In this document: one piece after another, positions 53,306 through 56,096 of the stretch
Layout: every line of letters begins with the position of its first letter
How positions within the stretch are numbered: position 1 is the stretch's first letter
Source of the DNA: Candidatus Angelobacter sp. Gp1-AA117
GTDB taxonomy: Bacteria > Acidobacteriota > Terriglobia > Terriglobales > Acidobacteriaceae
Direction of reading: 5' to 3'
Assembly: GCA_003223515.1 (NCBI GenBank)
Contig: QHVI01000019.1
Coordinates: forward strand, 1-64,000
DNA: 64,000 bases
Program-made: the position numbers and the translations under genes
Notes under the pieces: model-generated
What the model was told of the DNA's origin: nothing
What the model saw: only the letters and a program-made list of their open reading frames with translations
Databases searched by the model: none

Positions 53306-53437
53306 ACTTGCGGCCTGGGCAGCAATCCCAATCTTAAGGTAATGATTACGCGCAACTAAGTACCGCCTTCTTGCGTTAAAATCTTAAGAAGCTCCCATAC
53401 CTGCAAATCATCAAATCAGGTATGCTTTGGATTGAAT

Positions 53438-54091
53438 ATGAAACTTTTGATTAGATCAGTTCTCGTTCTGCTGGCCGCGCTCTCTCTGGCCAGTCTCTGT
53501 TTTGGCGCAGATGCCTCGTTGCTGAAGCCTCCTCCAGGGGCCAAAGTCGCCGTCGTCATGTTTGAAGACCTGGAATGTCCGGATTGCGCCCGCAGCTATC
53601 CCATTGTCTGGGAAGCCGCCAAGGCCCACAAAGTCCCGGTGGTGCTGCATGATTTCCCGCTGCCGAAGCACAACTGGTCTTTTGACGCCGCAGTATATGC
53701 CCGCTACTTTGATACCAGGTCACAGCAAACCGGGAATGATTTCAGGGCCTTCATGTACCAGAACCAGCCCAACGTCACCCGCGATAACCTGCGGCAGTTC
53801 GTGCAGAAATTTGCCGACGATAACAAGGTGCCTCTGCCCTTCAATATCGACCCCGAAGGAAAGCTTAAAGCCAAAGTCCAGGCCGACTATGACCTGGGGC
53901 AGCGCATCAATCTGGAGCACACGCCTACGATCTTTGTCATCGGCGAAGGCGCCTCTTCCACTCCGTTTGTCGAAGTGGTGGACCGCGATAAGCTCTCTCA
54001 ATACATTGAAAACATGCAGAAGCAGGCTGGGGCGGCCACTCCGGCCACAGTCAAGCGGACCGCTGCGAAGGTACACAAAAAGCCGAGCTAA
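53438..54091 (+). CDS. DsbA-like thioredoxin-fold protein
   Basis: VAVVMFEDLECPDCARSYPIV (CPDC); cis-Pro region LEHTPTIFVIG; signal peptide. Confidence 0.85.
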   Translation: MKLLIRSVLVLLAALSLASLCFGADASLLKPPPGAKVAVVMFEDLECPDCARSYPIVWEAAKAHKVPVVLHDFPLPKHNWSFDAAVYARYFDTRSQQTGNDFRAFMYQNQPNVTRDNLRQFVQKFADDNKVPLPFNIDPEGKLKAKVQADYDLGQRINLEHTPTIFVIGEGASSTPFVEVVDRDKLSQYIENMQKQAGAATPATVKRTAAKVHKKPS

Positions 54092-54163: not shown

Positions 54164-54652
54164 TTACTCACGCATCTCTCTCAGGACTTTCAAGTATTCC
54201 TCGTTGTCCGGCTCCTGGCCCAATTCATAGACCTTGGAAAAGACGATCTTGCCGTTTTTATCCACCACAAAGACGGCCCGATCGTTGATTCCCGGCAGAG
54301 GCTCCCCCAGGCGGAGAATACCGTACTTCTCAGCAATGCCGCCATGAGGCCAATAATCGCTGGCCAGAGGGTATTCCTGCCAGCCGATCCCCTTCTCCTG
54401 CCATGCGATATGGCTGTAAATTGAATCTGTACTGATGCCCACGACCTGGGCATTCGTCTCGGCAAATTCAGGCAGGTCCCTGCCGTATGCCGACATCTCG
54501 TTGCTTCATGTTGGGCTCCAGTCCAGAGGATAAAACGCCAGAACCACGTTCTGTTTGCCCCGGTAGTCGCTGAGCTTGAATTTATGCCTCTGTTTGCCTG
54601 TACAGGCAGGCAGTTCAAAGTCCGGAGCGGTATCTCCCGCTTTCAATGCCAT
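54164..54652 (-). CDS. Peroxiredoxin (AhpC/TSA/BCP type) with in-frame TGA (54508..54506) at the peroxidatic Cys position; candidate selenoprotein
   Basis: [48 protein letters not shown][TGA][28 protein letters not shown]...; GGAGG RBS; same frame on both sides of the TGA (codon 49). Confidence 0.8.
54459..54493 (-). promoter_or_regulatory. Candidate bacterial SECIS-like stem-loop
   Basis: UCGGCA-UAC-GGCAG-GGAC-CUGCC-UGAAUU-UGCCGA, starting 13 nt after the UGA; G at the start of the apical loop, 27 nt after the UGA. Confidence 0.6.
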
Positions 54653-55175
54653 CCCAAACCTCCGCCTTATGCGCTATAAAGTAGTTACGAAAAGTGATGC
54701 ACTTACGTACAGGCAAAATTCTTGCTCATACGCAATCGATCATTGTAACTTCGTTCAAAATGTAGAACAAATGGCACAACGCAGCAGAGTCGCAACCAAA
54801 GCAGCCTCGCGGAATTGCCAAAATTGCCATAATTTGTAATTGCCATAATTGAAGCCCTGTTAAGGCAGTTGAGGATACAAAATTTGCGCGAAAAGCACGA
54901 TTTCAAAGTTCCTAGTGGAACAAAGGCCAGACTGTCATAGGACTATTGCCTGCAACACAGATCATGGCTATGGTGATTACGTCTGCTTATTCGCTTCACT
55001 CACCCAGGACTAAAGGCCTGGGCTGAGCCTGCGATTCGCAAGCGAATCGGTAGACACTGATACACCGTAGAGGTCACTTTTTAAAAGCACGCCCTCTACG
55101 GGAAAACGGAGACAGCATCGCAGGCATCGAACCGAAAGGGCTTAGAGTAGAGTAATCTCTTATAGAGGCATCCAC

Positions 55176-56096
55176 ATGCTGGGATTCGGCGACTACAACT
55201 ACGAACATTTCACCCGGGAGCATCTGCACGATACCGGACGCACGCCCTTCACGGGACCTGAGCCCGGCGAGCATGCCCCTGATTTTAAAGGCAAGACCCT
55301 GGAGGGCGATGCCCTGCGCCTGAGCGACTATCAGGGTAAGAAGAACGTCCTGCTGATTTTCGGCTCTGCCACCTGTCCTATGACTGCCGGTTCGATTGAG
55401 GGAATCAATGAACTCTATGACGAGTTCCGGGGCGACGACGTCGATTTCCTCTTTATTTATGTGCGCGAGGCCCATCCCGGCGAGAAGATTTCCGCGCACC
55501 GCTCCATGGACGATAAAGCCCGGGCTGCCCGCCTGTTGCGCGATCAGGAAGATATGGAGATGCCGGTGATCGTGGACGACCTGCGCGGCTCCATCCACCG
55601 CAAATACTCCAAGCTGCCCAATCCCGCGTTCCTCATTGATAAGTCAGGGCGCATTGCCTTCCGTTCCATGTGGACCAGGCCAGAGACGCTGGCGGACGCG
55701 ATCAAAGAACTGCTGAAATTACAGCAGGAGCGCGGCCTCGATCATGTAGTAGTCAATGGCGGCCAGGATCTTTCCATGCCGCTGAGCTATGGAGTGCTTT
55801 ATTCCTACCGGGCACTGGAACGCGGTGGCTCGGAGTCATTGAAGGATTTTCGTGAAGCGCTGGGCTTCTCCGGAACAGTCGCCGTGACGACCTCGCGGGT
55901 AGCGCGACCGATTCTTGAAAATCCGAAGCGTGTGCTGGCTATCGCTGCCCTGACCGCAGCCGTACTCACCGGAGGCCTATACGCCGGATTTGAACTGCGC
56001 AAACGCCGTCTGGGCCTCACTCGCAATCCCTACAAGGCATACGAGAAAGAAGACGACACAGATACCGGCACAGATTACGGAGCGGTGGGGATTTAG
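55176..56096 (+). CDS. Deiodinase-like / peroxiredoxin-like thioredoxin-fold protein with C-terminal TM
   Basis: GEHAPDFKGKTLEGDALRLSDYQGKKNVLLIFGSATCPMTAGSIEGINELYDEFRGDDVDFLFIYVREAHPGE resembles the deiodinase FGSxTC/UPPF...YIEEAHP pattern. Confidence 0.75.
   Translation: MLGFGDYNYEHFTREHLHDTGRTPFTGPEPGEHAPDFKGKTLEGDALRLSDYQGKKNVLLIFGSATCPMTAGSIEGINELYDEFRGDDVDFLFIYVREAHPGEKISAHRSMDDKARAARLLRDQEDMEMPVIVDDLRGSIHRKYSKLPNPAFLIDKSGRIAFRSMWTRPETLADAIKELLKLQQERGLDHVVVNGGQDLSMPLSYGVLYSYRALERGGSESLKDFREALGFSGTVAVTTSRVARPILENPKRVLAIAALTAAVLTGGLYAGFELRKRRLGLTRNPYKAYEKEDDTDTGTDYGAVGI

Follow-up and report, generated by a model that had tools for sequence, protein, structure and literature searches.

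The minus-strand gene at 54164-54652 of the window (the whole stretch of 64,000 nt that was analysed) appears to encode a selenoprotein, an AhpE-like 1-Sec peroxiredoxin whose in-frame UGA is most likely recoded through a two-part 'bridged' SECIS, in which a distant hairpin (P2) is combined with an intervening helix (P1); we give this reading a probability of roughly four in five. The features concerned are as follows, with offsets counted from the UGA.

54164..54652, minus strand: predicted Sec peroxiredoxin gene (AhpE-like 1-Sec, 162 residues, Sec at 49), from the frame, profile matches and the TGA column
54659..54663, minus strand: probable ribosome binding site GGAGG, from sequence, 6 nt 5' of the ATG
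54506..54508, minus strand: predicted UGA codon for Sec at the peroxidatic residue (offset 0 in the SECIS numbering), from the frame and the orthologue alignment
54485..54493, minus strand: 5' strand of the putative bridge helix P1 (+15..+23; UCGGCA then U-AC), from redraws, covariation and folds
54471..54484, minus strand: inner hairpin GGCAG-GGAC-CUGCC (+24..+37), within P1; fits the canonical model at 26 nt, -6.8 kcal/mol
54459..54467, minus strand: 3' strand of P1 (+41..+49, ends UGCCGA), from redraws, covariation and folds
54435..54453, minus strand: hairpin P2, the proposed SelB-binding SECIS hairpin, AUGCCCA-GGUCG-UGGGCAU (+55..+73), from conservation, redraws and covariation

The frame is as the earlier note had described it: from ATG 54652 to TAA 54164 it is open apart from the TGA at 54508-54506, the GGAGG stands at 54663-54659, and the ORF caller begins at the internal ATG 54496, so that the full frame was missed. 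The TGA does fall, as claimed, on the peroxidatic cysteine, since residue 49 closes the sequence P42-LDW-S46-PT-U49 (PLDWSPTU, residues 42-49), which has the P-x3-(T/S)-x2-C/U form of AhpC-TSA peroxiredoxins. When translated with read-through, the protein matches the AhpC-TSA Pfam domain at 112.5 bits, against a cut-off of 26, and Redoxin at 70.6 bits. Its only other cysteine, C17, is not conserved, and no conserved resolving Cys was found among the aligned homologues; the nearest solved relatives include AhpE, a 1-Cys enzyme of Mycobacterium tuberculosis, as well as 2-Cys peroxiredoxins. The match to AhpE (PDB 4x0x, 1xxu, Rv2238c) extends over residues 3-152 and includes a common sd-wphg segment, but the mycobacterial protein has Cys where the window protein would have Sec, and a score of about 82 bits makes it a distant relative. 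Judged by its sequence, the product is a 1-Cys-type, AhpE-like peroxiredoxin with Sec at the peroxidatic position.

That Sec peroxiredoxins exist in bacteria, which the earlier note took as established, agrees with the literature: Prx, with its TxxU motif (PF00578), is listed as a bacterial selenoprotein family (PMC13188914), many examples come from marine data (PMC1088965, PMC2398784), and PrxU of Eubacterium acidaminophilum enters here as reference 83 of PMC13188914. Selenoproteins have also been reported from Acidobacteriota (PMC12013277). The window protein shares with the known family a thioredoxin-type peroxiredoxin fold and a UGA codon for the peroxidatic residue, but differs from it in being of the AhpE-like 1-Cys type, in which no resolving Cys is conserved, and it scores 75.5 bits against the NCBIfam PrxU model, whose cut-off is 270. 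The gene sits in a redox neighbourhood, between a convergent, DsbA-like Thioredoxin_4 gene (53432-54091, plus strand) and an adjacent divergent gene (55176-56096, plus strand) with a T4_deiodinase (iodothyronine deiodinase) match of 60.1 bits; the deiodinase-like gene has Cys, in FGSATCPMT, at the site where deiodinases have Sec.

Taken alone, an interrupted frame could mean that a nonsense mutation has made the gene a pseudogene or that the sequence is in error, an explanation that we consider extremely improbable in view of the Sec machinery described below and the distribution of the TGA. Among the congeners sampled, each of the four that have a close orthologue (75-77% identity) shows TGA at the aligned column, dozens more orthologues from other genera and phyla retain it at about 50-64% identity, and its position is identical in all aligned TGA orthologues, the frames being otherwise intact. 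Base-call error is excluded because the TGA recurs in independent genomes, and the same recurrence bears out the contention that a random nonsense mutation was unlikely. The closest non-TGA homologues have Cys at this column, giving the Sec/Cys alignment that the earlier note had looked for, except in one small paralogue group whose peroxidatic residue is Ser (PLNWEPVS type; L129, L130, L132, L133 and L134, with TCA in L134). The genomes of these Ser paralogues also have TGA family members, and the paralogues are possibly non-catalytic or repurposed.

Relatives belong to the Terriglobia/Acidobacteriaceae. A TGA orthologue is present in 35 of 200 genomes of the order, and SelA exceeds its cut-off in 34 of these 35, compared with 54 of the 165 genomes without a TGA orthologue (p=2e-13). 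The sole UGA-peroxiredoxin genome in which there was no SelA match (G144, locus L038) has a fragmented assembly, and the lack is probably an assembly gap.

The source assembly (6.48 Mb, listed as 100% complete) contains all four of the genes for which the earlier note had advised a search, namely selA, selB, selD and tRNA-Sec (selC). In profile searches SelA (547 bits), SelB (399.7 bits) and SelD (372 bits) lie above their curated cut-offs, SelD carrying its own TGA at the active-site position, and a tRNA-Sec with anticodon UCA scores 71.9 bits against a gathering score of 47. Bacterial selenoproteins are recognised by an in-frame UGA aligned with the Cys of homologues and by SelA, SelB, SelD and tRNA-Sec in the genome; both are found here, which supports the view that UGA 54508-54506 is read as Sec and sustains the original inference of a selenoprotein. 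Of the 15 AhpC-TSA loci in the source genome, 6 have a single in-frame TGA, which on inspection lies in each case within a redox motif, and the genome has at least seven selenoproteins. Further selenogenes are L001, L002, L003, L135, L136 and L018; their types are PrxQ-type, FTGGU-type, UPFC and UIFC Prx-like, UGC thioredoxin-like and SelD.

There is also a second, divergent tRNA-Sec(UCA) gene (L023, G000:C190:14815-14909; 57.9 bits) with a weakened T-stem, which was not seen in any other genome sampled from the genus. The presence of two tRNA-Sec-like UCA genes, one of them divergent, might indicate that a suppressor tRNA or an altered code makes UGA stand for Cys or some other residue, and selC-like tRNA-Cys with opal anticodons are known elsewhere (PMC7609411). 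We hold this to be highly improbable, however, given the full set of SelA, SelB, SelD and tRNA-Sec, the SECIS-like hairpins specific to UGA genes, and the persistence of UGA genes in sampled genomes of the genus where the divergent copy was not found.

The new observation lies downstream of the UGA: hairpin P2, whose loop (GGUC/GGUU) starts about 59 nt after it, is conserved in Sec genes but not in Cys homologues. The synonymous sites of the codons GAT/AAT-GCC-CAG-GTC (+54..+65) are nearly invariant in TGA orthologues, unlike Cys homologues. RNAalifold returned almost nothing on +0..+60, the signal emerging once the region was extended downstream. As a control, synonymous codons were redrawn from the usage of each gene itself, so that the protein is unchanged but selection on the RNA is lost. 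The 82 Sec genes form 6.57 of the 7 P2 pairs as against 5.03 when redrawn (0/400 redraws as high), while the 22 Cys genes form 4.50 against 4.63, and the folding-energy excess in sliding 21-nt windows tops at +54 (-5.7 kcal/mol) in Sec genes only. The loop begins GGU in 75 of the 82. In a non-redundant set of 55 sequences the pairing of P2 reaches 97%, with changes on both sides of four pairs, and the covariation of P1 and P2 jointly is 0.251, compared with 0.112 for shuffled and at most 0.090 for slid structures; relatedness of the genes inflates z-scores, and the main safeguards are the slid structures and the Cys genes, only 22 in number.

P2 is retained in records from Bacillota, Chloroflexota and Eremiobacterota, its stem varying on both sides across lineages and its loop remaining mostly constant. 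The stem is AUACCCA/UGGGUAU in Anaerobacillus, AGACCCA/UGGGUCU in an Anaerolineales record, AUAGCCA/UGGCUAU (loop AGUUC) in a Chloroflexi record and AUGCCGA/UCGGCAU in L145. When a covariance model was searched against the source genome, only the window gene (68.9 bits) and the other P2-type Sec peroxiredoxin (C24; 56.8 bits) rose above noise; weaker matches, of which the next scored 20.4 bits, were rejected, and the tier at 20 bits and below was taken as chance. These computations show P2 to be under RNA selection in Sec genes and not in Cys genes.

The difficulty is one of distance. The published account places bacterial SECIS 16-37 nt from the UGA, while noting that some genes do not conform (PMC13188914). 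P2 has an apical loop within the canonical 3-9 nt with an early G[G/U] (GGUCG) and an upper stem within 4-16 bp (7 bp, -10.2 kcal/mol), but its loop lies 59 nt from the UGA along the chain, and the spacing comes to about 20 nt (12-30) only with P1 folded out. In the gap separating the UGA from P2 lies P1, which runs from about +15 to about +49. Its register shifts among subgroups, fixed columns pairing in only 64% of cells, and because of this P1 was tested as the expected number of gap-spanning pairs: 7.86 in the 76 P2-type genes against 3.51 when redrawn, with 73 of the 76 above, and 2.29 against 2.12 in the Cys genes. In minimum-energy folds all 76 P2-type genes are bridged, leaving a residual path of 12-30 nt (median 20) from UGA to P2 loop. 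The apical loops of P1 are variable and often large. P1, like P2, is thus under selection in Sec genes and not in Cys genes, as far as computation can show.

The inner hairpin enclosed by P1 offers a more conventional solution, in which the SECIS is this ordinary hairpin (+24..+37, 26 nt) and P2 is accessory, for example a recoding enhancer or a ribosome-slowing hairpin. In the window gene the inner hairpin (loop GGAC, -6.8 kcal/mol) does fit the published model, and Sec genes show a folding excess over +18..+44 too, though a weaker one. Yet the fit breaks down across orthologues, a G[G/U] hairpin being found at canonical distance in only 16 of the 76 P2-type genes but at the far position in 62; moreover, the inner loop varies (GGAC, GUAU and AUAU within the genus; also open loops of 13-15 nt) whereas that of P2 hardly changes. 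Certain Sec relatives that lack P2, six genes of FTGGU type (L169, L170, L171, L173, L178 and L179, with FTPGU in L179), have a hairpin with loop GGC at +26, which also counts against this solution and suggests that far and canonical hairpin positions are alternatives, the signal having moved within the family. We consider an inner-hairpin SECIS unlikely. By sequence alone the inner hairpin could serve, but P2 is most likely the SECIS of the window gene, and is preferred because so few P2-type genes have an inner-type hairpin and because the loop of the inner hairpin changes within the genus.

Among the other selenogenes of the source genome, loops containing GU occur some 16-25 nt from the UGA: canonical hairpins in genes of other types have the loops AGUUA at 16 nt, GUU at 21 and AGUU at 25, and that of SelD has GGU at about 20 nt. 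With such loops at ordinary distance elsewhere in the genome, P2 has a locally usual loop at an unusual distance. In the PrxQ family the folding-energy scan peaks at +12, and the hairpin CGG-GUU-CCG places its GUU loop at about 18 nt; a GGUC at +59 in the PrxQ gene L001 was entertained as a second displaced SECIS and dropped, 30 homologues showing the canonical hairpin. The SECIS of E. coli fdhF, unlike P1 and P2 together, is a single hairpin immediately after the UGA; its apical loop contains AGGUC, a string also present in P2.

We infer binding of SelB to P2, a bridging role for P1 and peroxidase activity of the product, as follows. UGA 54508-54506 would be read as Sec by SelB and tRNA-Sec, with SelB bound to P2 at the GGUC loop starting 59 nt past the UGA. 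P1 (+15..+49), which would start at about the ribosomal mRNA entry, would fold out the gap and leave a path from UGA to loop of about 20 nt, as in an ordinary bacterial SECIS. The Sec of the AhpE-like 1-Sec peroxiredoxin would then attack peroxide.

P2 has features in common with the bSECISearch consensus (Zhang and Gladyshev 2005, as conveyed by PMC13188914), namely a small apical loop with G followed by G/U close to its beginning, located within the coding sequence 3' of the UGA; it departs from the consensus, in the form given there, in that the loop lies 59 nt rather than 16-37 nt from the UGA, with a conserved helix in the gap. Within the open-access literature searched, no account of a bridged SECIS turned up. 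We propose the bridged SECIS as a novel form of an established element, and the gene as an addition to a selenoprotein family already known. It is probable that these genes represent a separate class of bacterial SECIS, with the SelB hairpin about 60 nt beyond the UGA and the effective spacing recovered through a hairpin in between. A bridged SECIS in Sec peroxiredoxins of several phyla would imply that what SelB requires is a certain distance in space, not a set count of nucleotides.

Tools that seek a hairpin 16-37 nt past the UGA would judge such genes on the wrong hairpin or miss them. If our reading is true, the SelB spacing rule becomes directly testable, and these genes show a coding sequence shifting its recoding signal away from the protein-constrained region of the active site. 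They also add a clade of Sec peroxiredoxins that is common among Terriglobia soil bacteria.
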